In this document: positions 1-58,160 of the stretch, piece after piece
Layout: each line of letters begins with the position of its first letter
How positions within the stretch are numbered: the first letter of the stretch is position 1
Source: Haliclona indistincta
Taxonomy: Eukaryota > Porifera > Demospongiae > Haplosclerida > Chalinidae
Direction: 5' to 3'
NCBI GenBank assembly: GCA_964017065.1
Contig: OZ024788.1
Location: 7,845,202 to 7,909,201, forward strand
DNA: 64,000 nt
Notes under the pieces: generated by a model
The model's database searches: none
Told to the model about the DNA's origin: nothing
Seen by the model: only the letters and a program-made list of their open reading frames with translations
Translations under genes and position numbers: made by a program

Positions 1-3000
1 TGTTATTACTAGAGGAATAGGTGAAACAGTGTCAATCGGAGCAGAAACTGTTGCTGTGATGTCTCCTGGTTGTGTGACGGTAGCTGTTACTACAGGTGAA
101 ACAGTGTCAATCGGAGCAGAAACTGTTGCCGTGATGTCTCCTGGTTGTGTGACGGTAGCTGTTACTACAGGTGAAACAGTGTCAATCGGAGCAAAAACTG
201 TTGCTGTGATGTCTCCAGGTTGTGTGACGGTAGCAGTTACTACAGGAGAAACAGTGTCAATTGGAGCAGAAACTGTTGCCGTGATGTCTCCTGGTTGTGT
301 GACGGTAGCTGTTACTACACGTGAAACAGTGTCAATTAGAGCAGAAACTGTTGCTGTGATATCTGCAGGTTGTGTGACTACTGTTGTTACTACGGGAGGA
401 ATAGGTGAAACAGTATCAATCGGAGCAGAAACTGTTGCTGTGATGTCTCCAGGTTGTGTGACGGTAGCAGTTACTACAGGGGAAACAGTGTCAATCAGAG
501 CAGAAACTGTTGCCGTGATGTCTCCTGGTTGTGTGACAGTAGCTGTTACTACAGGAGAAACAGTGTCAATTGGAGCAGAAATTGTTGCGGTGATTTCTCC
601 TGGTTGTGTGATGGTAGCTGTTATTACTGGAGGAATAGGTGAAACAGTGTCAATTGGAGCAGAAACTGCTGCTGTGATGTCTCCAGGTTGTGTGACGGTA
701 GCGGTTACTACAGGTAAAACAGAGTCAATCGGAGCAGAAACTGTTGCCGTAATGTCTCCAGGTTGTGTGACGGTAGCTGTTACTACAGGTGAAACAGTGT
801 CAATCGGAGCAGAAACTGTTGCTGTGATATCTGCAGGTTGTGTGACTACTGTTGTTACTACTGGAGGAATAGGTGAAACAGTGTCAATTGGAGCAGAAAC
901 TGTTGCTGTGATATCTGCAGGTTGTGTGACTACTGTTGTTACTACTGGACGAATAGGTGAAACAGTGTCAATCGGAGCAGAAACTGTTGCTGTGATGTCT
1001 CCAGGTTGTGTGACGGTAGCAGTTACTACAGGAGAAACAGTGTCAATTGGAGCAGAAACTGTTGCTGTGATGTCTCCAGGTTGTGTGACGGTAGCAGTTA
1101 CTACAGGAGAAACAGTGTCAATTGGAGCAGAAACTGTTGCCGTGATGTCTCCTGGTTGTGTGACGGTAGCTGTTACTACAGGTGAAACAGTGTCAATTGG
1201 AGCAGAAACTGTTGCCGTGATGTCTCCTGGTTGTGTGACGGTAGCTGTTACTACAGGTGAAACAGTGTCAATTGGAGCAGAAACTCTTGCCGTGATGTCT
1301 CGTGGTTGTGTGACGGTAGCTGTTACTACAGGTGAAACAGTGTCAATTGGAGCAGAAATCGTTGCCGTGATGTCTCCTGGTTGTGTGACGGTAGCTGTTA
1401 CTACAGGTGAAACAGTGTCAATTGGAGCAGAAACCGTTGCCGTGATGTCTCCTGGTTGTGTGACGGTAGCTGTTACTACAGGTGAAACAGTGTCAATTGG
1501 AGCAGAAACTGTTGCTGTGATATCTGCAGGTTGTGTGACTGCTGTTGTTACTACGGGAGGAATAGGTGAAACAGTGTCAATTGGAGCAGAAACTGTTGCT
1601 GTGATGTCTCCAGGTTGTGTGACGGTAGCAGTTACTACAGGAGAAACAGTATCAATTGGAGCAGAAACTGTTGCAGTGATGTCTCCAGGTTGTGTGACGG
1701 TAGCAGTTACTACAGGAGAAACAGTGTCAATAGGACGAGAAACTGTTGCTGTGATGTCTCCTGGTTGTGAGACGGTAGCTGTTACTACAGGTGAAACAGT
1801 TTCAATCGGAGCGGACACAGTTGCTGTGATGTCAGTCACTTGCGTTACAGTAGCTGAAGCTATAGAAACAACAGGTGAAATTGTATCAACAGGTACTGAT
1901 AAAGTTCTTGTAATGTCCTCTGGTCCAGTAACAAGAGAGAACGTTGCTGATGCTGTTTGAGAAATAGGTGAGAGTGTTTGAGATACAGAATCTACTGGTC
2001 TACTAAGTGGTATTGCAGTAGCTGAAGCATCTTGAGAAAATGAAAGGACAGTTTGAATTGGAGGAATTATGGTTGCTGTAACGTCCCTAAGTGTATCAGT
2101 AAGCGAGACGGTAGCTGATCTTAAAGGAGAAACAGGTGACGAAATAGCTTCAATTGGAGTTGACACAGTCGCTGTGAAGTCTACTGGTTGTGTGATGGTA
2201 GCTGTTGCCACTGGAGGAGATGGTGAAACAGTTTGAATCAGAGCAGAAATTGTAGCTGTAATGTCTGTGACGGTAGCTGTTACTAAAGGTGAAATAGTGT
2301 CAATTGGAGCAGAAACTGTTGCCGTGATGTCTCCAGGTTGTGTGACGGTAGCTGTTACTACAGGTGAAACAGTGTCAATTGGAGCAGAAACTGTTGCTGT
2401 GATGTCTCCAGGTTGTGTGACGGTAGCAGTTACTACAGAAGAAACAGTGTCAATTGGAGCAGAAACTGTTGCCGTGATGTCTCCAGGTTGTGTGACGGTA
2501 GCTGTTACTACAGGTGAAACAGTGTCAATTGGAGCAGAAACTGTTGCTGTGATGTCTCCAGGTTGTGTGACGGTAGCAGTTACTACAGGTGAAACAGTGT
2601 CAATCTGAGCAGAAACTGTTGCCGTGATGTCTCCAGGTTGTGTGACGGTAGCTGTTACTACAGGTGAAACAGTGTCAATCTGAGCAGAAACTGTTGCTGT
2701 GATGTCTCCAGGTTGTGTGACGGTAGCAGTTACTACAGGAGAAACAGTGTCAATTGGAGCAGAAACTGTTGCCGTGATGTCTCCTGGTTGTGTGACAGTA
2801 GCTGTTACTACAGGAGAAACAGTGTCAATTGGAGCAGAAACTGTTGCCGTGATGTCTCCAGGTTGTGTGACAGTAGCTGTTACTACTGGAGGAATAGGTG
2901 AAACAGTGTCAATTGGAGCAGAAACTGTTGCAGTAATGTCTCCAGGTTGTGTGACGGTAGCAGTTCCTACAGGAGAAACAGTATCAATTGGAGCAGAAAC

Positions 3001-5552: not shown

Positions 5553-8500
5553 CTGAGAGAAAAGACTACATAAATATTTTTGTATATAAATATTGTGGAT
5601 TGACTTACCAAAATCATTTCTACAGCAGCCTAGTAGAATACCTCCACATTCTGAATCATCAGATGCTTCTTTACATCTTGTGATTCCTTGAGGAGTCAGT
5701 AGATTGCCGAATTGGCAACATCGACAGCATTCAATGTAGTTGGTTCGACAAACTCCCACTGGTAACCTACTACCATCACAACTTCCAGTAGATATCAAAT
5801 CTTGTATGGCAGCAGCACAACATTCTCCTCCTAATAAACACACTTTTTAAACAAGCAACATCGTTTAAATAAACTAATCTTACCTAATGCAGGGAACATC
5901 ACATTAGTAGTGCTGGTTGATATACAATCATCTGGTAATAGCGTAGGTGTGACTGTCAAACTTGGAACCAAAGGTGAAATAGTGTCAATCGGAGCAGTAA
6001 CAGTTGATGTGATGTCTCCAGGTTGTGGGACAGTAGCTGATACATCTGGACGAATAGGCGAGACAGTACCAATAGGAGTAGAAACAGTAGCTGTAATGTC
6101 TCCAGGTTGTGTGACTGCTATTGTTAATATAACTGAAGGAATAGGTGAAACAGTGCCAATAGGAGCAGAAACTGTTGCTGTGATGTCTCCAAGTTGTGTG
6201 ACGGTATCTATTGTCACAGGAGAAACAGAAGAAACAGTTTCAATCGGAGCGGACACAGTTGCTGTGATGTCAGTCACTTGCGTTACAGTAGCTGTAGCGA
6301 TAGAAACAACAGGTGAAATTGTATCAACAGGTACTGATAAAGTTCTTGTAAAGTCCTCCGGTCCTGTAACAAGAGAGAACGTTGCTGATGCTGTTTGAGA
6401 AATAGGTGAGGGTGTTTGAGAAACAGAATCCGCCGGTCTACTAAGTGGTATTGCAGTAGCAGAAGCATCTTGAGAAAATGAAAGGACAGTTTGAATTGGA
6501 GGAATTATGGTTGCTGTAACGTCCCTAAGTGTATCAGTAAGCGAGACGGTAGCTGATCTTAAAGGAGAGACAGGTGACGAAATATCTTCAATTGGAGTTG
6601 ACACAGTCGCTGTGAAGTTTACAGGTTGTGTGATGGTAGCTGTTGCCACTGGAGAAGATGGTGAAACCGTTTGAATCAGAGCAGAAACTGTTGCTGAGAC
6701 TTGTCCTGGTTGTGTGATGGTAGCTGTTATTACTGGAGAAATAGGTGAAACAGTGTCAATCGGAGCAGAAACAGTTGCTGTGATGTTTCCAGGTTGTGTG
6801 AGGGTAGCTGTTACTACAGGTGAAACAGTGTCAATTGGAGCAGAAACTGTTGCTGTGATTTCTCCAGGTTGTGTGATGGTAGCTGTTACTACTGGTGAAA
6901 CAGTGTGAGTTGGAGCAGAAACTGTTGCTGTGATTTCTCCAAGTTGTGTGATGGTAGCTGTTATTACAGGAGGAATAGGTGAAACAGTGTCAATAGGAGC
7001 AGAAACCGTTGCTGTCATGTCTCCAGGTTGTGTGATGGTAGCTGCTACTACAGGTGAAACAGTGTCAATTGGAGCAGAAACTGTTGCTGTGATTTCTCCA
7101 GGTTGTGTGATGGTAGCTGTTACTACAGGTGAAACAGTGTCAATCGGAGCAGAAAGTGTTGCTGTGATGTCTCCAGTTTGTGTGACGGTAACTGTTACTA
7201 CAGGTGAAACAGTGTCAATCGGAGCAGAAAGTGTTGCTGTGATGTCTCCAGTTTGTGTGACGGTAGCTGTTACTACAGGTGAAACAGTGTCAATCGGAGC
7301 AGAAAGTGTTGCTGTGATGTCTCCAGTTTGTGTGACGGTAGCTGTTACTACAGGTGAAACAGTGTCAATTGGAGCAGAAACTGTTGCTGTGATTTCTCCA
7401 GGTTGTGAGACTGCTGTTGTTACTACTGGAGGAATAGGTGAAACAGTGTCAATTGGAGCAGAAACTGATGCTGTGATTTCTCCAGGTTGTGTGATGGTAG
7501 CTGTTACTACAGGTGAAACAGTGTCAATTGGAGCAGAAACTGTTGCATTGATTTCTCCAGGTTGTGTGAGGGTAGCTGTTAGTACAGGAGGAATAGGTGA
7601 AACAGTGTCAATAGGAGCAGAAACCGTTGCTGTCATGTCTCCAGGTTGTGTGATGGTAGCTGCTACTACAGGTGAAACAGTGTCAATTGGAGCAGAAACT
7701 GTTGTTGTGATTTCTCCAGGTTGTGTGATGGTAGCTGTTACTACAGGTGAAACAGTGTCAATTGGAGCAGAAACTGTTGTTGTGATTTCTCCAGGTTGTG
7801 TGATGGTAGCTGTTACTACAGGTGAAACAGTGTCAATTGGAGCAGAAACTGTTGCTGTGATATCAGCAGGTTGTGTAACTGCTGTTGTTACTACTGGAGG
7901 AATAGGTGAAACAGTGTCAATAGGAGCAATAACTGTTGCTGTGATGTCTCCAGGTTGTGTGACGGTAGCTGTTACTACAGGTGAAACAGTGTCAATTGGA
8001 GCAGAAACTGTTGCTGTGATGTCTCCAGGTTGTGTGATGGCAGCTGTTACTACAGGTGAAACAGTGTCAATTGGAGCAGAAACTGTTGCTGTGATGTCTC
8101 CAGGTTGTGTGACGGTAGCTGTTACTACAGGTGAAACAGTGTCAATTGGAGCAGAAACTGTTGCTGTGATTTCTCCAGGTTGTGAGACTGCTGTTGTTAC
8201 TACTGGAGGAATAGGTGAAACAGTGTCAATAGGAGCAGAAACTGTTGCTTTGATTTCTCCAGATTCTGTGATGGTAGCTGTTATTACTGGAGGAATAGGT
8301 GAAACAGTGTCAATAGGAGCTGAAACTGTTGCTGTGATGTCTCCAGGTTGTGTGACGGTAGCTGTTACTACAGGTGAAACAGAGTCAATTGGAGCAGAAA
8401 CTGTTGCCGTGATGTCTCCTGGTTGTGTGACGGTAGCTGTTACTACAGGTGAAACAGTGTCAATTGGAGCAGAAACTGTTTCTGTGATATCTCCAGGTTG

Positions 8501-11500
8501 TGTGACAGTAGCAGTTACTACAGGAGAAACAGTATCAATTGGAGCAGAAACTGTTGCAGTGATGTCTCCAGGTTGTGTGACGGTAGCAGTTACTACAGGA
8601 GAAACAGTGTCAATTGGAGCAGAAACTGTTGCCGTGATGTCTCCTGGTTGTGTGACGGTAGCTGTTACTACAGGTGAAACATTATCAATTGGAGCAGAAA
8701 CCGTTGCCGTGATGTCTCCTGGTTGTGTGACGGTAGCTGTTACTACAGGTGAAACAGTGTCAATTGTAGCAGAAACTGTTGCTGTGATATCTGCAGGTTG
8801 TGTGACTGCTGTTGTTACTTCTGGAGGAATAGGTGAAACAGTGTCAATTGGAGCAGAAACTGTTGCTGTAATGTCTCCAGGTTGTGTGACGGTAGCAGTT
8901 ACTACAGGAGAAACATTATCAATTGGAGCAGAAACTGTTGCCGTGATGTCTCCTGGTTGTGTGACAGTAGCTGTTACTACAGGTGAAACAGTGTCAATTG
9001 GAGCAGAAACTGTTGCTGTGATATCTGCAGGTTGTGTGACTGATGTTGTTACTACTGGAGGAATAGGTGAAACAGTGTCAATCGGAGCAGAAACTGTTGC
9101 TGTGATGTCTCCAGGTTGTGTGACGGTAGCAGTTACTACAGGAGAAACAGTGTCAATTGGAGCAGAAACTGTTGCTGTGATGTCTCCAGGTTGTGTGACG
9201 GTAGCAGTTACTACATGAGAAACAGTGTCAATTGGAGCTGAAACTGTTGCCGTGATGTCTCCTGGTTGTGTGACGGTAGCTGTTACTACAGGTGAAACAG
9301 TGTCAATTGGAGCAGAAACTGTTGCCGTGATGTCTCCTGCTTGTGTGACGGTAGCTGTTACTACAGGTGAAACAGTGTCAATTGGAGCAGAAACTGTTGC
9401 AGTGATGTCTCCAGGTTGTGTGACGGTAGCAGTTACTACAGGAGAAACAGTGTCAATAGGACGAGAAACTGTTGCTGTGATGTCTCCTGGTTGTGAGACG
9501 GTAGCTGTTACTACAGGTGAAACAGTTTCAATCGGAGCCGACACAGTTGCTGTGATGTCAGTCACTTGCGTTACAGTAGCTGAAGCTATAGAAACAACAG
9601 GTGAAATTGTATCAACAGGTACTGATAAAGTTCTTGTAATGTCCTCTGGTCCAGTAACAAGAGAGAACGTTGCTGATGCTGTTTGAGAAATAGGTGAGAG
9701 TGTTTGAGATACAGAATCTACTGGTCTACTAAGTGGTATTGCAGTAGCTGAAGCATCTTGAGAAAATGAAAGGACAGTTTGAATTGGAGGAATTATGGTT
9801 GCTGTAACGTCCCTAAGTGTATCAGTAAGCGAGACGGTAGCTGATCTTAAAGGAGAAACAGGTGACGAAATAGCTTCAATTGGAGTTGACACAGTCGCTG
9901 TGAAGTCTACTGGTTGTGTGATGGTAGCTGTTGCCACTGGAGGAGATGGTGAAACAGTTTGAATCAGAGCAGAAATTGTAGCTGTAATGTCTGTGACGGT
10001 AGCTGTTACTAAAGGTGAAATAGTGTCAATTGGAGCAGAAACTGTTGCTGTGATGTCTCCAGGTTGTGTGACGGTAGCTGTTACTACAGGTGAAACAGTG
10101 TCAATTGGAGCAGAAACTGTTGCTGTGATGTCTCCAGGTTGTGTGACGGTAGCAGTTACTACAGGAGAAACAGTGTCAATTGGAGCAGAAACTGTTGCTG
10201 TGATATCTGCAGGTTGTGTGACTGATGTTGTTACTACTGGAGGAATAGGTGAAACAGTGTCAATCGGAGCAGAAACTGTTGCTGTGATGTCTCCAGGTTG
10301 TGTGACGGTAGCAGTTACTACAGGAGAAACAGTGTCAATTGGAGCAGAAACTGTTGCTGTGATGTCTCCAGGTTGTGTGACGGTAGCTGTTACTACAGGT
10401 GAAACAGTGTCAATTGGAGCAGAAACTGTTGCTGTGATGTCTCCTGGTTGTGTGACGGTAGCTGTTACTACAGGAGAAACAGTGTCAATAGGACGAGAAA
10501 CTGTTGCTGTGATGTCTCCAGGTTGTGTGACGGTAGCAGTTACTACAGGAGAAACAGTGTCAATAGGAGGAGAAACCGTTGCTGTGATGTCTCCTGGTTG
10601 TGTGACGGTAGCAGTAACTACAGGTGAAACAGTGTCAATTCGAGCAGAAACTGTTGCTGTGATGTCTCCAGGTTGTGTGACGGTAGCAGTTACTAAAGGA
10701 GAAACAGTGTCAATAGGAGGAGAAACTGTTGCTGTGATGTCTCCTGGTTGTGTGACGGTAGCTGTTACTACGGGTGAAACAGTGTCAATTGGAGCAGAAA
10801 CTGTTGCCGTGATGTCTCCAGGTTGTGTGACGGTAGCTGTTACTACGGGTGAAACAGTGTCAATTGGAGCAGAAACTGTTGCCGTGATGTCTCCTGGTTG
10901 TGTGACGGTAGCTGTTACTACAGGTGAAACAGTGTCAATTGGAGCAGAAACTGTTTCTGTGATATCTGCAGGTTGTGTGACTGATGTTGTTACTACTGGA
11001 GGAATAGGTGAAACAGTGTCAATTGGAGCAGAAACTGTTGCTGTGATGTCTCCTGGTTGTGTGACGGTAGCTTTTACTACAGGTGAAACAGTGTCAATTG
11101 GAGCAGAAACTGTTGGCGTGATGTCTCCTGGTTGTGTGACGGTAGCTGTTACTACAGGTGAAACAGTGTCAATTGGAGCAGAAACTGTTGCCGTGATGTC
11201 TCCTGGTTGTGTGACGGTAGCTGTTACTACAGGAGAAACAGTGTCAATTGGAGCTGAAACTGTTGCCGTGATGTCTCCTGGTTGTTTGACGGTAGCTGTT
11301 ACTACAGGTGAAACAGTGTCAATTGGAGCAGAAACTGTTGCTGTGATATCTGCAGGTTGTGTGACTGCTGTTGTTACTACTGGAGGAATAGGTGAAACAG
11401 TGTCAATTGGAGCAGAAACTGTTGCTGTGATGTCTCCAGGTTGTGTGACGGTAGCAGTTACTACAGGAGAAACATTATCAATTGGAGCAGAAACTGTTGC

Positions 11501-35500: not shown

Positions 35501-38500
35501 CTGTTACTACAGGTGAAACAGTGTCAATTGGAGCAGAAACTGTTGCTGTGATTTGTCCAGGTTGTGTGATGGTAACTGTTACTACTGGAGGAATAGGTGA
35601 AACAGTGTTAATCGGAGCAGAAACTGTTGCTGTGTTATCTGTAGGTTGTGTGACTGCTGTTGTTACTACTGGAAGAATAGGCGAAACAGTGTCAATCGGA
35701 GCAGAAACTGTTGCTGTGATGTCTCCAGGTTGTGTGACTGTAGCTGTTACTACATGTGAGACAGTGTCAATCGGAGCAGAAACTGTTGCTGTGATATCTG
35801 CAGATTGTGTGACTGCTGTTGTTACTACTGGAGGAATAGGTGAAACAGTGTCAATAGGAGCAGAAACTGTTGCTGTGATGTCTCCAGGTTGTGTGACAGT
35901 AGCTGTTATTACTGGAGGAATAGGTGAAACTGTGTCAATCGGTGGAGAAACTGTTGCTGTGATGTCTCCAGGTTGTGAGACGGTAGCGGTTACTACAGGT
36001 AAAACAGTGTCAATAGGAGCAGAAACTGTTGCTGTGATGTCTCCAGGTTGTGTGATGGTAGCTGTTGTCACAGGAGAAACAGGTGAAACAGTTTCAATTG
36101 GAGCGGACACAGTTGCTGTGATGTCAGTCACTTGCGTTACAGTAGTTGAAGCTATAGGAACAACAGGTGAAATTGTATCAACAGGTACTGATAAAGTTCT
36201 TGTAAAGTCCTCTGGTCCTGTAACAAGAGAGAACGTTGCTGATGCTGTTTGAGAAATAGGTGAGGGTGTTTGAGAAACAGAATCCGCCGGTCTACTAAGT
36301 GGTATTGCAGTAGCTGAAGCATCTTGAGAAAATGAAAGTACAGTTTGAATTGGAGGAATTATGGTTGCTGTAACGTCCCTAAGTGTATCAGTAAGCGAGA
36401 CGGTAGCTGATCTTAAAGGAGAAACAGGTGACGAAATAGCTTCAATTGGAGTTGACACAGTCGCTGTGAAGTTTACTGGCTGTGTGATGGTAGCTGTTGC
36501 CACTGGAGAAGATGGTGAAACCGTTTGAATCAGAGCAGAAACTGTTGCTGAGACTTGTCCTGGTTGTGTGATGGTAGCTGTTATTACTGGAGGAATAGGT
36601 GAAACAGTGTCAATCGGAGCAGAAACTGTTGCTGTGATGTCTCCAGGTTGTGTGAGGGTAGCTGATACTACTGGTGGAACAGTGTCAATTGGAGCGGAAA
36701 CTGTTGCTGTGATTTCTCCTGGTTGTGTGATGGTAGCTGTTATTACTGGAGGAATAGGTGAAACAGTGTCAATCGGAGCAGAAACTGTTGCTGTGATGTC
36801 TCCAGGTTGTGTGACGGTAGCTGTTACAACAGGTAAAACAGTGTCAATTGGAGCAGAAACAGTTGCTGTGATTTCTCCAGGTTGTGAGACTGCTGTTGTT
36901 ACTACTGGAGGAATAGGTGAAACAGTGTCAATAGGAGCAGAAACTGTTGCTGTGATTTCTCCAGGTTTGGTGATGGTAGCTGTTATTACTGGAGGAATAG
37001 GTGAAACAGTGCCAATCGGAGTAGAAACTGTTGCTGTGATGTCTTCAGGTTGTGTGACGGCTGTGGTTACTACTGGAGGAACAGGTGAAACAGTGCCAAT
37101 CGGAGCAGAAACTGTTGCTGTGATGTCTCCAGGTTGTGTGATGGTAACTGTTACTACTGGAGGAATAGGTGAAACAGTGTTAATTGGAGCAGAAACTGTT
37201 GCTGTGATATCTGCAGGTTGTGTGACTGCTGTTGTTACTACTGGAGGAATTGGTGAAACAGTGTCAATTGGAGCAGAAACTGTTGCTGTGATGTCTCCAG
37301 GTTGTGTGACGGCTGTTGTTACTACTGGAAGAATAGGTGAAACAGTGTCAATTGGAGCAGAAACTGTTGCTGTGATGTCTTCAGGTTGTGTGACGGCTGT
37401 TGTTACAACTGGAGGAACAGTTGAAACAGTGCCAATTGGAGCAGAAACTGTTGCTGTGATGTCTGCAGGTTGCGTGACGGTAGCTGTTACAACAGGTGAA
37501 ACAGTGTCAATTGAAGCAGAAAGTGTTGCCGTGATGTCTCCAGGTTGTGTGACGGCTGTTGTTACTACTGGAGGAATAGGTGAAACAGTGTCAATCGGAG
37601 CAGAAACTGTTGCTGAGATGTCTCCAGGTTGTGTGACGGCTGTTGTTACTACTGGAGGAATAGGTGAAACAGTGTTAATCACAGCGGTAACTGTTGCTGT
37701 GATGTCTCCAGGGTTTCTGACTACGCTTGTTCGCACAGGAGCAACAGGTGAAACTGTATCAATCAGAGAAGAAACTGTTGCTGTGATGTCTCCAGGTTGT
37801 GTGACGGCTGTTGTTAGTACTGGAGGAATAGGTGAAACAGTGTCAATCGGAGCAGAAACTGTTGCTGTGATTTGTCCAGGTTGTGTGACGGTAGCTATTA
37901 CTACAGGTGAGACTGTGCCAATTGGTGAAGAAGCTGTTGCTGTGATGTCTCCAGGTTGTGTGACGGTAGCAGTTACTACAGGTGGAACAGTGTCAATTGG
38001 AGCGGAAACTGTTGCTGTGATTTCTCCAGGTTGAGTAACTGCTGTTGTTACTACTTGAGGAATAGGAGAGACAGTGCCAATCGGAGCAGAAACTGTTGCT
38101 GTGATGTCTCCAGGTTGTGTGACGGTAGCTGTTACTACAGGTGAAACAGTGTCAATTGGAGCAGAAACTGTTGCTGTGATGTCTCCAGGTTGTGTGATGG
38201 CTGTTGTTACTACTTGAGGAATAGGAGAGACAGTGCCAATCGGAGTAGAAACTGTTGCTGTGATGTCCCCAGGTTGTGTGATGGCTGTTGTTACTACTTG
38301 AGGAATAGGAGAGACAGTGCCAATCGGAGTAGAAACTGTTGCTGTGATGTCTCCAGGTTGTGTGACGGTAGCTGTTCCTTCCTGACGAATGGGTGAAACA
38401 GTATCAACAGGAGTGAATGCCGTTGTTGCGATGGTATTTGATGCTGCTTGAGAAACAGGTGAGACTGTTTCAATAGAAACAGAAATGGTAGGTGATCCTT

Positions 38501-41500
38501 GTGTACGAACTATTGTTGACAACTGTATACGAGATGTTATTGATGGAGAGATTGGTAATGGTTCCACTGATGTCACTGTCTGTATTGTATGTGTTGGATT
38601 GATCGTTGCTGGCAGTGTTCTTGTAGTCATTGGTATCACATTAATTGTACTGGATAGTTTTCTGAAACCCAAACATGCCTCACCATTTTGCCTTCTGTTT
38701 ATGACTGAGAGAAAAGACTACATAAACATTTTGATATGTAAATATTGTGGATGGACTTACCAAAATCATTTCTACAACAGCCTAGTAGAATACCTCCACA
38801 TTCTGAATCATCAGATGCTTCTTTACATCTTGTGATTCCTTGTGGAGTCAGTAGATTGCCGAATTGGCAACATCGACAGCATTCAATGTAGTTGGTTCGA
38901 CAAACTCCCACTGGTAACCTACTACCATCACAACTTCCAGTAGATATCAAATCTTGTATGGCAGTAGCACAACATTCTTCTCCTAATAAACACACTTTTT
39001 TAAACAAGGAATAAATTTATAAACTAAACTTACCTAATGCAGGGAACATCACATTAGTAGTGCTGGTTGATATACAATCATCTGGTAATAGCGTAGGTGT
39101 GACTGTCAAACTTGGAACCAAAGGTGAAATAGTGTCAATCGGAGCAGTAACAGTTGATGTGATGTCTCCAGGTTGTGGGACAGTAGCTGATACATCTGGA
39201 CGAATAGGCGAGACAGTACCAATAGGAGTAGAAACAGTAGCTGTAATGTCTCCAGGTTGTGTGACTGCTGTTGTTACTATAACTGAAGGAATAGGTGAAA
39301 CAGTGCCAATAGGAGCATAAACTGTTGCTGTGATGTCTCCAGGTTGTGTGATGGTAGCTGTTACTATAACTGAAGGAATAGGTGAAACAGTGCCAATAGG
39401 AGCAGAAACTGTTGCTGTGATGTCTCCAGGTTGTGTGATGGTAGCTGTTATCACTGGAGAAACAGGTGAAACAGTTTCAATCGGAGCGGACACAGTTGTT
39501 GTGATGTCAGTCACTTGCGTTACAGTAGCTGAAGCTATAGAAACAACAGGTGAAATTGTATCAACAGGTACTGATAAAGTTCTTGTAAAGTCCTCTGGTC
39601 CTGTAACAAGAGAGAACGTTGCTGATGCTGTTTGATAAATAGGTGAGGGTGTTTGAGAAACAGAATCCGCCGGTCTACTAAGTGGTATTGCAGTAGCTGA
39701 AGCATCTTGAGAAAATGAAAGGACAGTTTGAATTGGAGGAATTATGGTTGCTGTAACATCCCTAAGTGTATCAGTAAGCGAGACGGTAGCTGATCTTAAA
39801 AGAGAAACAGGTGATGAAATAGCTTCAATTGGAGTTGACACAGTCGCTGTGAAGCCTACTGGTTGTGTGTTGGTAGCTGTTGCCACTTGAGAAGATGGTG
39901 AAACAGATTGAATCAGAGCAGAAACTGTTGCTGTGATTTCTCCTGGTTTTATGATGGTAGCTGTTATTACTGGAGGAATAGGTGAAACAGTGTTAGATGG
40001 AGCAGAAACTGTTGCTGTGATGTCTCCAGGTTGTGTGACAGTAGCTGTTACTACAGGTGAGACAGTGTCAATTGGAGCAGAAACTGTTGCTGTGATGTCT
40101 CCAGGTTGTGTGACTGCTGTTGTTGATAATGGAGGAATAGGTGAAACAGTGTCAATTGGAGCAGAAACTGTTGCTGTGATTTCTCCTGGTTGTGTGACAG
40201 TAGCTGTTACTACAGGTGAGACAGTGTCAATTGGAGCAGAAACTGTTGCTGTGATTTCTCCTGGTTGGGTGATGGTAGCTGTTATTACTGGAGGAATAGG
40301 TGAAACAATGCCAATCGAAGCAGAAACTGTTGCTGTGATATCTCCAGGTTGTGTGACGGTAGCTGTTACTACAGGTGAAACATTGTCAATTGGAGCGGAA
40401 ACTGTTGCCGTGATTTCTCCAGGTTGTGTGACGGTAGCTGTTAATACAGGTGAAACAGTGTCAGTTGGAGCAGAAACTGTTGCTGTGATGTCTCCAGGTT
40501 GTGTGACTGCTGTTGTTGCTAATGGAGGAATAGGTGAAATAGTGTCAATTAGAGCGGAAACTGTTGCTGTGATTGCTGTTGTTACCAGTGGAGAAATAGG
40601 TATGAAAATGCCCATCGGAGCAGAAACTGTTGCTGTGATGTCTCCAGGTTGTGTGACGGTAGCTGTTACTACAGGCGAAACAGTGTCAATTGGAGAAGAA
40701 ACTGTTGCTGTGATATCTCTAGGTTGTGTGATGGTAGCTGTTATTACTGGAGGAATAGGTGAAACAGTGTCAATCGGAGCAGAAACTGTTGCTGTGATGT
40801 CTCCAGGTTGTGTGACTGCTGTTGTTGATAATGGAGGAATAGGTGAAACAGTGTCAATTGGAGCAGAAACTGTTGCTGTGATTTCTCCTGGTTGTGTGAC
40901 AGTAGCTGTTAGTACAGGTGAGACAGTGTCAATTGGAGCAGAAACTGTTGCTGTGATTTCTCCTGGTTGGGTGATGGTAGATGTTATTACTGGAGGAATA
41001 GGTGAAACAGTGCCAATCGGAGCAGAAACTGTTGCTGTGATATCTCCAGGTTGTGTGACGGTAGCTGTTACTACAGGTGAAACATTGTCAATTGGAGCGG
41101 AAACTGTTGCTGTGATTTCTCCAGGTTGTGTGACGGTAGCTGTTACTACAGGTGAAACAGTGTCAATTGGAGCAGAAACTGTTGCCGTGATTTCTCCAGG
41201 TTGTGTGACGGTAGCTGTTACTACAGGAGAAACAGTGTCAATTGGAGCAGAAACTGTTGCTGTGATATCTCCAGGTTGTGTGACGGTAGCTGTTACTACA
41301 GGTGAAACATTGTCAATTGGAGCGGAAACTGTTGCCGTGATTTCTCCAGGTTGTGTGACGGTAGCTGTTACTACAGGTGAAACAGTGTCAATTGGAGCAG
41401 AAACTGTTGCCGTGATTTCTCCAGGTTGTGTGACGGTAGCTGTTACTACAGGAGAAACAGTGTCAATTGGAGCAGAAACTGTTGCCGTGATTTCTCCAGG

Positions 41501-44500
41501 TTGTGTGACGGTAGCAGTTACTACAGGAGAAACAGTGTCAATAGGACGAGAAACTGTTGCTGTGATGTCTCCTGGTTGTGAGACGGTAGCTGTTACTACA
41601 GGTGAAACAGTTTCAATCGGAGCCGACACAGTTGCTGTGATGTCAGTCACTTGCGTTACAGTAGCTGAAGCTATAGAAACAACAGGTGAAATTGTATCAA
41701 CAGGTACTGATAAAGTTCTTGTAAAGTCCTCTGGTCCAGTAACAAGAGAGAACGTTGCTGATGCTGCCTGAGAAATAGGTGAGGGTGTTTGAGAAACAGA
41801 ATCCGCCGGTCTACTAAGTGGTATTGCAGTAGCTGAAGCACCTTGAGAAAATGAAAGGACAGTTTGAATTGGAGGAATTATGGTTGCTGTAACGTCCCTA
41901 AGTGTATCAGTAAGCGAGACGGTAGCTGATCTTAAAGGAGAAACAGGTGACGAAATAGCTTCAATTGGAGTTGACACAGTCGCTGTGAAGTTTACTGGTT
42001 GTGTGATGGTAGCTGTTGCCACTGGAGAAGATGGTGAAACCGTTTGAATCAGAGCAGAAACTGTTGCTGAGACTTCTCCTGGTTGTGTGATGGTAGCTGT
42101 TATCACTGCAGGAATAGGTGAAACAGTGTCAATCGGAGCAGAAACTGTTGCTGTGATGTCTCCAGGTTGTGCCATGGTAGCTGTTATTACTGGAGGAATA
42201 GGTGAAACAGTGTCAATCAGAGCAGAAACTGTTGCTGTGATGTCTCCAGATTGTGTGACGGTAGCTGTTACTACAGGTGAGACAGTGTCAATTGGAGCAG
42301 AAACTGTTGCTGTGATATCTGCAGATTGTGTGACTGCTGTTGTTACTACTGGAGGAATAGGTGAAACAGTGTCAATTGGAGCGGAAACTGTTGCTGTGAT
42401 TTCTTCAGGTTGTGTGACTGCTGTTGTTACGACTGGAGGAATAGGTGAGACAGTGCCAATCGGAGCAGATACTGTTGCTGTGATGTGTCCAGGTTGTGTG
42501 ACGGTAGCTGTTACTACAGGTGAAACAGTGTCAATCGGAGCAGAAACTGTTGCTGTGATTTCTCCAGGTTGTGTAATGGTAGCTGTTATTACTGGAGGAA
42601 TAGGTGAAACAGTGTCAATCGGAGCAGAAACTGTTGCTGTGATGTCTCCAGGTTGTGTGAGGGTAGCGGTTACTACAGGTGAAACAGTGTCAATTGGAGC
42701 AGAAACTGTTGCTGTGATGTCTCCAGGTTGTGTGACGGTAGCTGTTACTACAGGTGAAACAGTGTCAATTGGAGCAGAAACTGTTGCTGTGATGTCTCCA
42801 GGTTGTGTGGCTGCTGTTGTTACTACAGGAGGAATAGGTGAAACAGTGTGAATTGGAGCAGAAACTGTTTCTGTGATGTCTCTAGGTTGTGTGAGGGTAG
42901 CTGTTATTTCTGGTGAAACAGTGTCAATTGGAGCAGAAATTGTTGCTGTGATGTCTCCAGGTTGTGTGACTGCTGTTGTGACTACTGGAGGAATAGGTGA
43001 AACAGTGTCAATTGGAGCAGAAACTGTTGCTGTGATGTCTCCAGGTTGTGTGACTGCTGTTGTTACTACAGGAGGAACAGGTGAAACAGTGTCAATTGGA
43101 GCAGAAACTGTTGCTGTGATTTCTCCAGGTTGTGCCATGGTAGCTGTTATTACTGGAGGAATAGGTGAAACAGTGTCAATCAGAGCAGAAACTGTTGCTG
43201 TGATATCTGCAGATTGTGTGACTGCTGTTGTTACTACTGGAGGAATAGGTGAAACAGTGTCAATTGGAGCGGAAACTGTTGCTGTGATTTGTTGAGGTTG
43301 TGTGATGGTAGCTGTTATTACTGGAGGAATAGGTGAAACAGTGTCAATCGGAGTAGAAACTGTTGCTGTGATGTCTCCACGTTGTGTGATGGTAGCTGTT
43401 CCTTCCTGACGAATGGGTGAAACAGTATCAACAGGAGTGAATGCCGTTGTTGCGATGGTATTTGATGCTGCTTGAGAAACAGGTGAGACTGTTTCAATAG
43501 AAACAGAAATGGTAGGTGATCCTTGTGTACGAACTATTGTTGACAACTGTATACGAGATGTTATTGATGGAGAGATTGGTAATGGTTCCACTGATGTCAC
43601 TGTCTGTATTGTATGTGTTGGATTGATCGTTGCTGGCAGTGTTCTTGTAGTCATTGGTATCACATTAATTGTACTGGATAGTTTTCTGAAACCCAAACAT
43701 GCCTCACCATTTTGCCTTCTGTTTATGACTGAGAGAAAAGACTACATAAATATATTGATATGTAAATATTGTGGATGGACTTACCAAAATCATTTCTACA
43801 ACAGCCTAGTAGAATACCTCCACATTCTGAATCATCAGATGCTTCTTTACATCTTGTGATTCCTTGAGGAGTCAGTAGATTGCCGAATTGGCAACATCGA
43901 CAGCATTCAATGTAGTTGGTTCGACAAACTCCCACTGGTAACCTACTACCATCACAACTTCCAGTAGATATCAAATCTTGTATGGCAGCAGCACAACATT
44001 CTTCTCCTAATAAACACACTTTTTTAAACAAGGAATAAAATTATAAACTAAACTTACCTAATGCAGGGAACATCACATTAGTAGTGCTGGTTGATATACA
44101 ATCATCTGGTAATAGCGTAGGTGTGACTGTCAAACTTGGAACCAAAGGTGAAATAGTGTCAATTGGAGCAGTAACAGTTGATGTGATGTCTCCAGGTTGT
44201 GGGACAGTAGCTGATACATCTGGACGAATAGGCGAGACAGTACCAATAGGAGTAGAAACAGTAGCTGTAATGTCTCCAGGTTGTGTGACTGCTGTTGTTA
44301 CTATAACTGAAGGAATAGGTGAAACAGTGCCAATAGGAGCAGAAACTGTTGCTGTGATGTCTCCAGGTTGTGTGACGGTAGCTATTGTCACAGGAGAAAC
44401 AGAAGAAACAGTTTCAATCGGAGCGGACACAGTTGCTGTGATGTCAGTCACTTGCATTACAGTAGCTGAAGCTATTGAAACAACAGGTGAAATTGTATCA

Positions 44501-47500
44501 ACAGGTACTGATATAGTTCTTGTAAAGTCCTCTGGTCCAGTAACAAGAGAGAAAGTTGCTGATGCTGTTTGAGAAACAGGTGAGAGTGTTTGAGAAACAG
44601 AATCTACTGGTCGACTAAGTGGTATTGCAGTAGCTGAAGCATCTTGAGAAAATGAAAGGACAGTTTGAATTGGAGGAATTATGGTTGCTGTAACGTCCCT
44701 AAGTGTATCAGTAAGCGAAACGGTAGCTGATCTTAAAGGAGAAACAGAAGATGAAATAGCTTCAATTGGAGTTGACACAGTCGCTGTAAAGTCTATTGGT
44801 TGTGCGACGGTAGCTGTTGCCACTGGAGAAGATGGTGAAACAGTTTGAATCAGAGCAGAAACTGTTGTTGTGATGTCCCCAGGTTGTGTGACTACTACTG
44901 GAGGAATAGGTGAAACAGTGTCAATCGGAGCAGAAATTGTTGCTGTGAAGTCTCCAGGTTGTGTGACTGCTGTTGTTACTACTGGAAGAATAGGTGAAAC
45001 AGTGTCGATCGGAGCGGTAACTGTTGCTGTGATGTCTCCAGTGTTTCTGACTACGCTTGATCGCACAGGAGCAACAGGTGAAACTTTATCAATCGGAGAA
45101 GAAACTGTTGCCGTGATGTCTCCAGGTTGTGTGACGGCTGTTGTTACTAATGGAGGAATAGGTGAAAAAGTGTCAATCGGAGCAGAAACTGTTGCTGTGA
45201 TGTCTCCAGGTTGTGTGACGGCTGTTGTTACTACTGGAGGAATAGGTGAAACAGTGTCAATCGGAGAAGAAACTGTTGCTGTGATATCTCCAGGTTGTGT
45301 GACGGCTGTTGTTACAACTGGAGGAATAGGTGAAACAGTGTCAATCGGAGCGGTAACTGTTGCTGTGATGTCTCCAGGGTTTCTGACTACGCTTGTTCGC
45401 ACAGGAGCAACAGGTGAAACTGTATCAATCGGAGAAGAAACTGTTGCCGTGATGTCTCCAGGTTGTGTGACGGCTGTTGTTATTACTGGAGGAATTGGTG
45501 AAACAGTGTCAATTGGAGCAGAAACTGTTGCTGTGATGTCTCCAGGTTGTGTGACGGCTGTTGTTACTACTGGAGGAATTGGTGAAACAGTGTCAATCGG
45601 AGAAGAAACTGTTGCTGTGATATCTCCAGGTTGTGTGATGGCTGTTGTTACTACTGGAGGAATTGGTGAAACAGTGTCAATTGGAGCAGAAACTGTTGCT
45701 GTGATGTCTCCAGGTTGTGTGACGGCTGTTGTTACTACTGGAGGAATAGGTGAAACAGTGTCAATCGGAGCGGTAACTGTTGCTGTGATGTCTCCAGGGT
45801 TTCTGACTACGCTTGTTCGCACAGGAGCAACAGGTGAAACTGTATCAATCGGAGAAGAAACTGTTGCCGTGATGTCTCCAGGTTGTGTGACGGCTGTTGT
45901 TATTACTGGAGGAATTGGTGAAACAGTGTCAATTGGAGCAGAAACTGTTGCTGTGATGTCTCCAGGTTGTGTGACGGCTGTTGTTACTACTGGAGGAATA
46001 GGTGAAACAGGAGCAGAAACTGTTGCTGTGATGTCTCCAGGTTGTGTGACGGCTGTTGTTACTACTGGAGGAATAGGTGAAACAGGAGCAGAAACTGTTG
46101 CCGTGATGTCTTGATGTTGTGTGATAGTAGTTGTTTCTAATGGAACGACAGGTGATACAGTGTCAATCGGAATGGGAATAGTTTCCGTTATGCCATCTGC
46201 TTTAGAAATAAATGGGGTGGTAGCTGAAGCAAATTGAACAGATGATGTTGTTTCGATAGTGGTTGATGACACATCCCTTTGTTGCGAGATGGTAGCTGAT
46301 GCTTCTGGAGCAAAAGATGAAGCTGTTCCACTTGATAGAGAAGCAGTTGCTTTGACCTCTTTTAGTTGTGTCACTGTAGCCGATGTCTCTGGAGCAAGAA
46401 GTGAAACAGTGTCAATCGGAGCAGAAACAGTTGCTGTAATGTCTCCAGGTTGTGAAATGGTTACTGATATGACTGGTATAGTAGTAGCTGTATTTTCCTC
46501 GGGTCTAGTGACAAGCGAGGTGGTAGCTGATGTCATCGAAGCAACAGGCGATATGGTTTCAGTGAGAGTAGAAATGGTCTCCATGTTTTCCGTGATTGAT
46601 GTCGGTTGCAGTGGAGCAGGACTTGATGCACTAGATACTGTGGAAGCTAGTTGTGCAATCTTTACGTCCAAGCACTGTTCTGTTCCGGTTCCACTGATTT
46701 CTGAAAAATAACAACAACACTAAGTTAAGAAAGAATATAATAATTACTGCACTAACCAAAATCATTGCTGCAGCAACCCAGTAGAACAGTCCCGCATTGT
46801 GTATCATCAGTTGCTCGTGGACATCGAACCTGTTGTCCAGCACGCTTCAATAGATTTCCAAAATTACAGCACCTACAACATCCAAGAAAGTTAGTTCGAC
46901 ATTGTCCAATTTGTGCGGGTGCTGCTGTGTCACAGAATCTACCAGCTAGTTCTGCCTCTATACCAGCAGCACAACATTCTCCTCCTGTGTAATATTTATA
47001 AACAACACATCATCGTTGGTTTTATTCATATCATTGTTCTGACCTAGTTCAGGATAAGCTCTCAACACGGCTCCTGTGTTTGATGACGGGCACAAACGAT
47101 TGTCAGTACCTTGGAGGAAAAATTAATAATTAATTATTTTGCGGGGTCTCTTGATTTTCTTACTGACCTGATTGACGCCGAACTCTCTTTGATGGTACCG
47201 ACAGCGATACAGTTGCAGAATTATGAGTTAATGTTGCGGACGAAGGTAAGCTGGATACGACCTTCAAACAGTCACCCTGTACGTGCTGAACGCACATACT
47301 GTAGCTAGTTCCAATTTTGAACGAGTGGCAATTGGAGCTGGCATCGTCCAGTTTGATCAACAATTGAGATTTGTTACTAGTCCAGCAGTTATCCTGAGTG
47401 GAGAAAAGGCGCAAATACTCCAGTCCGCGATCAATACCAATAGCGATCCTATCAGAGTGGAGCTTTGAAACGTTAGCAGAGAAGAAGAAGTCGCATTGCG

Positions 47501-47663
47501 ACTCTGTAATCGTCCTGCACGATGTGTCGTAGCTGCTCCATGCTGCAGGCAAGGCTTGCAGCAAGAACAGCAAGACAAGCATCGTTGCTAGCACTACAAT
47601 GCAGCCTCGAGTGAGCTCTGCTGGAATGTAGTGCGCATTTTGTGGCTTCTTTGATAACCACAT
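1..47663 (-). CDS. Giant modular mucin-like secreted/surface protein (18 exons visible, 3' end outside window)
   Basis: Seen: a continuous chain of exons on the minus strand with GT..AG introns and matching phase: 47663-47168, 47109-47044, 46984-46757, 46700-44058, 44006-43785, 43728-39034, 38982-38761, 38704-33866, 33814-33593, 33536-28173, 28121-27900, 27843-23884, 23832-23611, 23554-15125, 15071-14850, 14793-5884, 5830-5609, 5552-1 (continues). After exon 1 all complete exons are multiples of three with phase 1 at both ends. Visible coding length is about 46.7 kb, roughly 15,580 codons. Order: N-terminal hydrophobic segment, small Cys domain, furin-like site, then eight pairs of a 12-Cys exon and a Ser/Thr-rich tandem-repeat exon. 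Known: long Thr/Ser/Pro repeats between Cys-rich domains are typical of mucins and gel-forming or matrix proteins. Inferred: an extracellular, heavily O-glycosylated protein. No enzymatic domain is visible and the C-terminus is unknown. Confidence 0.85.
5609..5830 (-). CDS. Cys exon C8: 12-Cys domain
   Basis: 222 bp, 74 codons, phase 1-1, GGECCAAAI subtype. It has the same protein sequence as C7 as far as I can read. Flanked by 53- and 56-bp introns. Confidence 0.85.
5884..14793 (-). CDS. Repeat exon L7 (2970 codons, longest complete exon)
   Basis: 8910 bp, exactly 2970 codons, phase 1-1. N-flank GLRK/MTTTTLP and C-flank ...MFPALG. Two marker blocks lie near 6,240-6,680 and 9,520-9,970; between and above them are dozens of near-identical 75-bp units. 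It contains a larger ~1.15-kb tandem duplication (about 10.8-13.1 kb). Confidence 0.83.
10800..13150. repeat. ~1.15-kb higher-order tandem duplication inside repeat exon L7
   Basis: A series of distinctive units recurs with an offset of 1152 bp: the rare cttttactac variant is at 11,071 and 12,223. Past one extra inserted 75-bp unit the offset becomes 1227 bp: the gtttgacgg variant is at 11,284 and 12,511. This shows duplication of a block of about fifteen units followed by single-unit expansion. Confidence 0.75.
14850..15071 (-). CDS. Cys exon C7: 12-Cys domain
   Basis: 222 bp, 74 codons, phase 1-1. It begins GGECCAAAI (Gly where C2-C6 have Glu), the same as C8. The upstream intron is 53 bp and of a different sequence type from the 51-bp introns above C2-C6. 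Confidence 0.85.
15125..23554 (-). CDS. Repeat exon L6 (2810 codons)
   Basis: An uninterrupted exon of 8430 bp, phase 1-1, N-flank GLRK/MTTTTLP. Three marker blocks lie near 15,480-15,920, 17,100-17,540 and 20,240-20,690. It is mostly the 25-residue unit DTVSPVVTATVTQPGD plus ITATVSAPI, with interspersed 28-residue units. No in-frame stop is present over the full length. Confidence 0.83.
23611..23832 (-). CDS. Cys exon C6: 12-Cys domain
   Basis: 222 bp, 74 codons, phase 1-1, GEECCAAAI subtype. Acceptor TTTATTAG, donor GTAAGT. All twelve cysteines are kept. Confidence 0.85.
23884..27843 (-). CDS. Repeat exon L5 (1320 codons)
   Basis: 3960 bp, phase 1-1, N-flank type GLRK/MTTTTLP. Two marker blocks lie near 24,240-24,680 and 26,040-26,480. 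The 28-residue subtype (DTVSPVPP...) dominates here, in contrast to L6 and L7 where the 25-residue subtype dominates. It shares its first and last several hundred bases closely with L4. Confidence 0.82.
27900..28121 (-). CDS. Cys exon C5: 12-Cys domain
   Basis: 222 bp, 74 codons, phase 1-1, GEECCAAAI subtype. It appears identical in protein to C6. The upstream intron is 51 bp and the downstream one 56 bp. Confidence 0.85.
28173..33536 (-). CDS. Repeat exon L4 (1788 codons)
   Basis: 5364 bp, phase 1-1, N-flank type GFRK/MTTRTLP. It has three marker blocks (near 28,530-28,970, 30,250-30,690 and 31,000-31,440). Two are adjacent because of a 750-bp tandem duplication (about 30,030-31,530). The low-coordinate part matches L5 and the high-coordinate part matches L3, so the exon is a mosaic. 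Confidence 0.82.
30030..31530. repeat. 750-bp tandem duplication inside repeat exon L4
   Basis: The segments at about 30,030-30,780 and 30,780-31,530 are nearly identical over 750 bp (ten 75-bp equivalents). The shared marker-block ends fall at 30,409 and 31,159, exactly 750 bp apart. At least one base differs (gtgatGgtagctgttgtc near 30,219, gtgatAgtagctgttgtc near 30,968), arguing for a real duplication rather than an assembly stutter. The reading frame is preserved. Confidence 0.8.
33593..33814 (-). CDS. Cys exon C4: 12-Cys domain
   Basis: 222 bp, 74 codons, phase 1-1, GEECCATAI subtype as in C3. It has a private change (CNEASDD where the others have CKEASDD). All twelve cysteines are kept. 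Confidence 0.85.
33866..38704 (-). CDS. Repeat exon L3 (1613 codons)
   Basis: 4839 bp, phase 1-1, N-flank type GFRK/MTTRTLP. Two marker blocks lie near 34,220-34,660 and 36,100-36,540. About 2 kb at the high-coordinate end (36.6-38.7 kb) is nearly identical to 31.45-33.54 kb of L4, including the rare units with the VRTSVVRNPGD motif, so L3 and L4 share a recent ancestor or exchange sequence. Confidence 0.82.
38761..38982 (-). CDS. Cys exon C3: 12-Cys domain
   Basis: 222 bp, 74 codons, phase 1-1. It begins GEECCATAIQDL (Ala to Thr relative to C2), a subtype shared only with C4. All twelve cysteines are kept. Confidence 0.85.
39034..43728 (-). CDS. Repeat exon L2 (1565 codons)
   Basis: 4695 bp, phase 1-1. 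N-flank VINRRQNGEACLGFRKLSS, then mixed 25- and 28-residue Thr/Ser/Val/Pro repeats, then the common C-flank. Two marker blocks lie near 39,480-39,920 and 41,620-42,060. The C-terminal marker sits ~85 bp further from the exon end than in the other exons, because one extra unit is inserted near 39,300. One unit near 40,570 is truncated (ITAVVTSGE in the opposite-strand reading), so the period is locally broken. Confidence 0.82.
43785..44006 (-). CDS. Cys exon C2: 12-Cys domain
   Basis: A 222-bp exon, 74 codons, phase 1-1, flanked by a 51-bp intron upstream and a 56-bp intron downstream. It begins GEECCAAAIQDL and ends GCCRNDFG, with twelve cysteines in the same order as C1. The GEECCAAA subtype is shared with C5 and C6. 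Confidence 0.85.
44058..46700 (-). CDS. Repeat exon L1 (first Ser/Thr tandem-repeat exon, 881 codons)
   Basis: An exon of 2643 bp, acceptor TTTTTCAG, phase 1-1, donor GTAAGT. It starts EISGTGTEQCLDVKIAQLAS, unlike the later long exons, which start VINRRQNGEACLG; both starts carry one Cys near the front. The first ~190 codons are irregular Ser/Thr-rich sequence, probably degenerate repeats. After that come regular 28-residue units of the form DTVSPIPPVVTTAVTQPGD plus ITATVSAPI. A subtype carrying VRTSVVRNPGD recurs at about 45,013, 45,349 and 45,769 (336 and 420 bp apart). One marker block lies at about 44,410-44,850. The exon ends with the shared ...PDDCISTSTTNVMFPALG. Confidence 0.8.
46757..46984 (-). 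CDS. Cys exon C1: 12-Cys fibulin/anaphylatoxin-like domain (most divergent copy)
   Basis: A 228-bp exon, 76 codons, phase 1-1, with acceptor TATTACACAG and donor GTTAGT. The cysteine order is CC-x(13)-C-x(10)-C-x(6)-CC-x-CC-x(14)-C-x(8)-C-x(6)-CC, followed by SNDFG. The central ...GCCRCCNFGNL... followed by spaced C, C, CC resembles the anaphylatoxin-like modules of fibulins (CC-x-CC-x-x-G...G-x-x-C...C...CC). The family assignment rests on this spacing only. This first copy differs at many positions from the other seven, which are nearly identical to each other, so it is probably the oldest or least homogenised. Confidence 0.75.
47044..47109 (-). CDS. Exon 2: 22-codon linker exon
   Basis: A 66-bp exon lies between a TTTTCCTCCAAG acceptor and a GTCAGA donor, phase 1 on both sides. 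It encodes DNRLCPSSNTGAVLRAYPEL plus edge residues, one cysteine, ending in ...PELG joined to GECC of the next exon. The end resembles the last residues of every long repeat exon (C-x-S-T...FPALG), so it looks like the same linker motif standing alone before the first Cys module. Confidence 0.75.
47168..47663 (-). CDS. Exon 1: signal/anchor segment, small Cys domain, furin-like site
   Basis: The ATG at 47663-47661 opens 165 codons plus one base. Residues 21-41 are strongly hydrophobic (CIVVLATMLVLLFLLQALPA), preceded by a 20-residue polar stretch. This suits either a signal peptide with a long n-region, perhaps cleaved near residues 41-44, or a type II anchor; a second Met at residue 28 lies inside the hydrophobic run. 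Residues 45-135 contain six cysteines (49, 57, 93, 112, 124, 132) and N-glycosylation sequons (NVS, NKS), suggesting a small disulfide-bonded domain that I do not recognise. Residues 160-163 are RVRR, a furin-type processing site. The donor chosen is GTCAGT after codon 165 (phase 1), because it matches the phase of exon 2; a GTAAG five bases downstream would break the frame. Confidence 0.8.
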
Positions 47664-58060: not shown

Positions 58061-58160
58061 TCAGCCGGCTCACCAAGAAACCATAGGTAGTTTCACACTT
58101 GCACGACGTTGCTTCAAAAACGCTGTGCTTTTATTTTAGCGAGTTCTTTCGCACCCAGGA

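Follow-up and report, generated by a model that had tools for sequence, protein, structure and literature searches.

A candidate giant secreted polymer of anaphylatoxin-like nodes, long repeat arms and a laminin G end, encoded by a single gene of the sponge Haliclona indistincta

What would a gene encode whose reading frames stay open along 47 kb of one strand? This question is raised by a 64-kb stretch of the Haliclona indistincta genome, C6:7845202-7909201 in a 144-Mb, 46-contig assembly (G000), which we call the window and analyzed together with 50 kb past its end. A preliminary description had seen in it a single modular gene for a secreted protein. Our analysis supports a single gene, a start of the secreted type and growth by duplication of modules. 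We consider it fairly probable that this animal gene yields a secreted matrix or mucus polymer of 22,801–22,828 residues, in which double anaphylatoxin-like (ANATO-like) nodes alternate with long arms and which ends in a laminin G domain.

On the minus strand of the window, eight long stretches are free of stop codons; seven are complete, with 892–2,991 codons, and the last leaves the window at its left end. Seven gaps of 265 or 299 bp part these stretches, and every gap contains a 222-bp cysteine-rich exon (Cys exon) that has both an acceptor and a donor, with a 56-bp intron behind it; the remaining Cys exon of the window is 228 bp long and precedes the first arm. The eight two-exon modules (a Cys exon and an arm exon each) chain with GT..AG and phase 1 at every arm-Cys and Cys-arm border. 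Adjacent module exons along the full chain are spaced 50–56 bp apart. Coding bases within the window number 46,737 (15,579 codons), in line with the more than 15,500 codons proposed earlier. The proposed chaining of minus-strand exons through 47 kb with consensus splice sites and the Cys exons of 222–228 bp with 12 cysteines were also recovered (GT..AG throughout; one exon of 228 bp and seven of 222 bp, with 12 cysteines in each). Three further statements hold in part. Introns of 51–56 bp surround Cys2-8 (51–53 bp ahead of them, 56 bp after every Cys exon), but the two introns nearest the start of the gene, at 58 and 59 bp, are slightly longer; phase 1 applies to the module borders, but the last four exons start in phases 1, 2, 0 and 0; and the eight modules are those of the window, whereas the whole gene has nine.

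In the order of translation (window positions, all on the minus strand), exon 1 (47168..47663) encodes a hydrophobic N-terminal stretch, MLVLLFLLQALPAA, judged by eye to be a signal peptide, an N-terminal domain with six cysteines and, at its end, RVRRQ, which we take to be a furin-like site. Two start codons are candidates, Met1 at 47663 and Met28 at 47582, and the choice between them is uncertain; two listed relatives of exon 1, P0005 and P0006, start at the equivalent of Met28 and keep the hydrophobic stretch. Exon 2 (47044..47109; 66 bp, one cysteine) is in phase 1 at both ends. It is followed by Cys1 (46757..46984), the most diverged copy of the 12-cysteine, double ANATO-like exon, and arm exon 1 (44058..46700; 880 residues), Cys2 (43785..44006) and arm exon 2 (39034..43728; 1,564 residues), Cys3 (38761..38982) and arm exon 3 (33866..38704; 1,612 residues), Cys4 (33593..33814) and arm exon 4 (28173..33536; 1,787 residues), Cys5 (27900..28121) and arm exon 5 (23884..27843; 1,319 residues), Cys6 (23611..23832) and arm exon 6 (15125..23554; 2,809 residues), Cys7 (14850..15071) and arm exon 7 (5884..14793; 2,969 residues), and finally Cys8 (5609..5830) and the first 5,552 of the 25,770 bp of arm exon 8 (1..5552). 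The seven complete arms, of 880 to 2,969 residues, agree with the 880–2970 residues given before.

The gene had been said to run off the window, and its remainder was found there, with the end 22.4 kb beyond. Arm exon 8 continues to C6:7824984, inside a stop-free stretch of 8,610 codons, and is followed by Cys9 (C6:7824933-7824712), a 249-residue arm 9 (C6:7824655-7823906) and four last exons, which together encode a laminin G domain and end in a stop codon (C6:7823850-7822804), all on the minus strand. The full model comprises 24 exons over 70,061 bp and encodes 22,828 residues from Met1 or 22,801 from Met28. The four joined exons match Pfam PF02210 with 54.9 bits (cut-off 22.9) at residues 37–165 of the joined C-terminus, and the match spans all three exon junctions; taken singly, they score 18.9, none, 14.1 and none, and none passes. 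Agrin is the best relative of solved structure (2.4e-11). The match across the junctions is good evidence for the predicted 3′ end of the gene model. Elsewhere in the genome, three consecutive laminin G matches (27–29% identity; C8:2973746-2977455, plus strand) perhaps belong to a laminin- or agrin-like gene.

The coding status of the arms is strongly supported. Repeat cores found frame-blind at the DNA level, in the arms outside the window as well, all lie in the predicted frame (722 of 722), and their spacings are without exception multiples of three (713 of 713; 387 of 75 nt, 252 of 84 nt); one mononucleotide shuffle of the arm bases yielded two core-like matches. Measured against the consensus, the ratio of nonsynonymous to synonymous changes was 0.18 in the 319 units of 25 codons and 0.23 once the seven anchor codons were left out; it was 0.28 for 159 distinct 25-codon units, and 0.62 for the 200 units of 28 codons, or 0.73 when their anchor was excluded. 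The units were chosen by protein motif and are non-independent, as they arose by duplication. Because the antisense frame with facing third positions gives 0.22 and 0.59, this ratio alone cannot choose the strand, which is decided by the splice sites and the laminin G domain. The plus strand opposite the arms also has open frames, the longest of 1,456 codons (window 2-1960, 6909-9218, 9963-14333 and 17536-20397); repeat composition and the facing of third codon positions probably account for these long antisense frames.

An open chain may still be expressed in pieces. Every module exon has phase 1 at both ends, so that skipping, duplication or loss of a module leaves the frame intact, and a 68-kb message would be unusual. 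The chain could accordingly be real while the mRNA usually carries far fewer modules, through exon skipping or alternative ends, and the full protein is rarely or never made. We regard this as possible but doubtful, as the frames are open everywhere, including the 8,610 codons over arm exon 8, and no frameshift occurs among the 722 cores.

The 12-cysteine node probably consists of two fused ANATO-like folds as in fibulin-2, judging by its CC-x-CC joint and cysteine spacing. The cysteines of five family members are separated by 0, 12, 8-10, 6, 0, 1, 0, 13-14, 8, 6 and 0 residues, those of fibulin-2 by 0, 12, 12, 6, 0 in module 1 and by 12, 7, 7, 0, 1, 0, 12, 9, 6, 0 in modules 2-3. The first half fits the six-cysteine ANATO spacing CC-x12-C-x8-13-C-x6-CC in all five members; the second half reads CC-x13-14-C-x8-C-x6-CC, again in all five, with a first gap one or two residues over that spacing. 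The PROSITE anaphylatoxin pattern fits two of five first halves and none of five second halves. A Foldseek search with the predicted node structure placed fibulin-2 in rows 1–8 of ten, and hhalign gave a probability of 86.7 for the one pair of node and fibulin-2 compared. The preliminary description had spoken of cysteine knots, but the paired CC-x-CC with spacings of x12, x8-10 and x6 suits anaphylatoxin folds better than a cystine knot, and spacing, Foldseek and hhalign together suggest a double fibulin-type module as the better explanation. Matches of the node to G-beta were taken as chance (26–27 residues of a β-propeller), and they mean that a sequence search by itself cannot prove the ANATO assignment. 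A search of the genome for the ANATO family yielded three candidates, none above the cut-off; as the gene's own Cys exons were also missed, an absence of fibulin-like genes is not implied.

Cysteines are excluded from the arms and retained at the nodes. Of the 135 in the whole model, seven come from exon 1, one of them in the presumed signal peptide and the other six downstream of it, and two from the laminin G domain. Each of the nine nodes has 12 plus one flanking cysteine on either side, 14 per node. The flanking cysteine ahead of a node lies in exon 2 or at the close of the arm before it, and the one behind the node lies nine or ten residues inside the arm that follows. Altogether, the 21,778 arm residues include only 17 cysteines, all at most 14 residues from an arm end.

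The nine arms, of 249–8,589 residues, are built mainly from units of 25 (DITATVSAPIDTVSPVVTATVTQPG) or 28 residues, with both lengths mixed along one array, and from a longer interlude marked by LTDTLRD, of which 25 copies are scattered over arms 1-8. A genome-wide search with the repeat unit gave 662 matches, and those listed all lie inside the gene (C6, 7.825-7.888 Mb). Acidic residues far outnumber basic ones (1,554 versus 229), and 1,034 serines or threonines have a proline at +3. The earlier label of mucin-like Ser/Thr/Pro/Val arms is broadly borne out by composition (12.9% Pro) except that Ser+Thr reaches only 31.6%, with Thr+Val+Ile at 47.6%: the arms are mucin-like in length, proline and threonine, but are not classical mucin, Ser+Thr being low and β-branched residues high.

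Scanned with Pfam, arms 1-7 and the part of arm 8 inside the window showed no domain that passes its cut-off in a single stretch. The talin-rod profile PF21865 exceeds its 27-bit cut-off in four of seven arm pieces (30.6, 50.9, 64.2, 51.6) and lies above its whole-protein cut-off at window 1-5550, 5885-14791, 15126-23552 and 39035-43726 (minus strand), yet none of the stretches passes alone; the score adds up, from many repeats, a weak similarity to some 46 positions, and we rejected it. It is a caution for the automatic annotation of repeat proteins. Also set aside were the baculovirus PEP profile PF04513 (three of seven arm pieces, under the cut-off), a D-alanyl-alanine synthetase match to arm 2 (E 0.14) and a TUG-UBL1 match to exon 1 (E 0.05-0.12, under the cut-off), both taken as chance, and weak matches to PQ-loop, P8_CR and WS_DGAT_C, all under the cut-off.

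Several observations weigh against a secreted polymer of ANATO-like nodes and mucin-like arms. The donor ahead of the laminin G exons (GTATTT) is, by eye, the weakest in the chain. The node does not reach the Pfam PF01821 cut-off (Cys1 9.5 of 21.4 bits; Cys2, P0001 and P0002 no match; listed for one of the nine members of the node family A1), for which reason we label it ANATO-like and claim no membership in the ANATO family; its fold model is weak, a second model is too poor for use, and the sequence significance of the relation is modest. To count as a PTS domain, 100 residues should hold 40% Ser+Thr together with 5% Pro, and just 54 of 20,887 arm windows attain this, compared with all 20,887 at 25% Ser+Thr.

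The low Ser+Thr content and the many β-branched residues keep alive a rather unlikely alternative, according to which the arms are β-rich fibre segments. Their units of 25 or 28 residues, in which Pro/Gly turns part short β-prone stretches, would then pile up to form a fibre or an elastic thread jointed by the ANATO-like nodes, and the product would be a skeletal or adhesive fibre. The spacings of 75 and 84 nt dominate, few arm windows attain 40% Ser+Thr, and a valine and isoleucine content such as that of the arms, where Thr+Val+Ile make up 47.6% of residues, is unusual for mucin domains. The mixed unit lengths, the 12.9% proline and the 1,034 Ser/Thr with proline at +3, on the other hand, suit extended glycosylated chains.

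How the modules arose can be read from their identities. Cys exons 2-9 are 95–100% identical in DNA and the introns following them 89–100%, whereas Cys1 has 63–66% DNA identity to the other Cys exons (53–55% protein identity to Cys2). The introns ahead of Cys3-6 are 100% identical, the exon sequences of Cys5 and Cys6 are the same, the longest exact repeat shared by different arms measures 1,136 bp, and the longest within arm 8 is 2,563 bp. The high identity of nodes and introns points to a recent origin of modules 2-9 by duplication or conversion, with Cys1 as the diverged member. Identical introns and Cys exons and long exact repeats could also result from an assembly that expanded or collapsed near-identical repeats, so that the true module number and arm lengths would differ. 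This seems improbable to us: arm lengths differ, small variants are present and the frames are open, and 46 contigs for 144 Mb suggest long reads. Human mucin repeats are described as varying between individuals (PMC13345508), and the same may hold for these arms. That the modules, though near-identical tandem duplicates, are separate genes we reject as highly implausible, since gaps of 50–56 bp are too small for promoters, untranslated regions and polyadenylation and exon 1 occurs once, with a single other match in the genome (E 0.75).

Beyond this gene, relatives are few. A genome-wide search for Cys exons gave nine matches among 11 candidates, eight in the window and one 20 kb past its left end. 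In a collection of 5.8 billion proteins, the only relatives found were P0001-P0003 for the node and P0005 and P0006 for exon 1 (P0004 is the gene's own exon 1). P0001-P0003 show 58–71% identity and keep all 12 cysteines; by eye, P0001 and P0002 continue past the exon border with GKLI, as the intron start would encode. P0005 (70% identity over 76%) keeps the six cysteines and RVRRQ of exon 1, and P0006 keeps four of the six and then diverges. The family is narrow or poorly sampled. Pattern searches fitted 15 stretches in viral contigs and 75 in genome contigs, none of which was confirmed. In the literature, none of the listed titles and abstract openings deals with this gene, and the combination of anaphylatoxin-like, mucin-like and laminin G parts gave no paper, in a search that left subscription journals mostly outside.

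The exon chain, the frame, the cysteine distribution and the laminin G match are read directly from the sequence, and from them we infer how the polymer might work. The order of parts would be signal peptide, six-cysteine N-terminal domain, furin-like site, nine nodes and nine arms, and C-terminal laminin G. Once secreted, the protein would carry its arms as O-glycosylated, extended spacers, the longest perhaps two micrometres by our estimate. The 12 node cysteines would pair inside the two folds, while nodes of different chains would bind one another, non-covalently and perhaps also by way of the flanking cysteines, forming a network that laminin G may anchor to glycans, cell-surface receptors or matrix. 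The product would be mucus or mesohyl matrix. More tentatively, and with the balance of probability somewhat against it, the gene could represent a giant network-forming slime or matrix polymer that an early animal lineage evolved independently of the VWD/CysD mucins, with fibulin-like nodes as cross-link joints, Thr/Val/Pro spacers, a laminin G anchor and a node number variable by phase-1 duplication.

The rest of the window contains a HEXIM-type gene (PF15313, 1.1e-21; 58140-58847, plus strand) and ALIX/PDCD6IP-like exons (61698-63691, minus strand; BRO1 end and V-domain matches in four of eight frames scanned), with Pro/Gly/Tyr-rich frames nearby at 59738-60278. Two pairs of inverted near-copies with matching translations (51018-51260 plus and 51398-51580 minus; 53705-54055 plus and 53928-54260 minus) are perhaps non-autonomous mobile elements. 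On another contig, mitochondrial cox1 (C46:1587-2927) has internal TGA read as Trp, its flanking frames read as nad4L and cob, and short motifs recur, by eye, in the frames downstream. Cox1 and the HEXIM and ALIX neighbours agree with an animal source and do not speak against a sponge.

Few predicted animal proteins would be longer than this one, a single coding exon of which measures 25.8 kb, and the gene would be a clean example of growth by phase-1 exon pairs. If it makes sponge mucus, animals have constructed a mucus layer on more than one occasion, with different joints; if it makes a skeletal fibre instead, it provides a matrix polymer on fibulin-like joints. A 2026 preprint (PMC13345508) gives predicted human MUC12 proteins of up to 23,080 residues and an exon of more than 27,303 bp, so neither length here is a record; MUC12, of the same size class, is a tethered mucin. 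What is new is the combination of parts, not the size.

Fibulin-1 and fibulin-2 share with the node tandem anaphylatoxin folds, the CC-x-CC joint and a near-identical cysteine spacing (compared with fibulin-2 only), but have three folds with 17 cysteines where the node has two with 12, and here the nodes are parted by giant arms. EGF-like repeats, a mark of fibulins, were not found by Pfam in the parts scanned, namely exons 1-3, arms 1-7, arm 8 as far as it lies in the window, and the C-terminus; arm 9 and the rest of arm 8 have cysteines only near their ends. Fibulin-2 anaphylatoxin modules dimerize with and without the interchain Cys500 disulfide (PMC11220139). The first half of the node, CC-x12-C-x8-10-C-x6-CC, also resembles the anaphylatoxin domain of complement C4 (CC-x12-C-x11-C-x6-CC), but the scanned parts around it contain no complement domain. 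Agrin and other matrix proteins share the C-terminal laminin G; in this gene, a single one ends a repeat polymer.

The closest functional parallel is found in gel-forming mucins. The layout had been called unmatched to any named family, but the CysD/PTS arrangement of these mucins (PMC13345508) offers such a parallel: their repeat exons encode tandem-repeat and Cys-rich domains, and MUC2, MUC5AC and MUC5B are likewise secreted, with large repeat exons and with Cys-rich and Ser/Thr/Pro repeat domains in one chain. VWD, a mark of gel-forming mucins, had no Pfam match in the same scanned parts. Elsewhere in the genome it has 37 matches, none on C6, with clusters at C4:3.06-3.17 Mb and 11.5-11.8 Mb, C2:16.26 Mb and C5:2.88-2.92 Mb that are candidates for classical mucin-like or other matrix proteins, and the animal may thus own classical mucins as well. 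In contrast to MUC2, MUC5AC and MUC5B, the node is ANATO-like rather than CysD, each node has its own exon, laminin G forms the end and Ser+Thr amounts to 31.6%. By analogy, the protein is best read as one that would work like a CysD/PTS mucin without being one, built from different parts.
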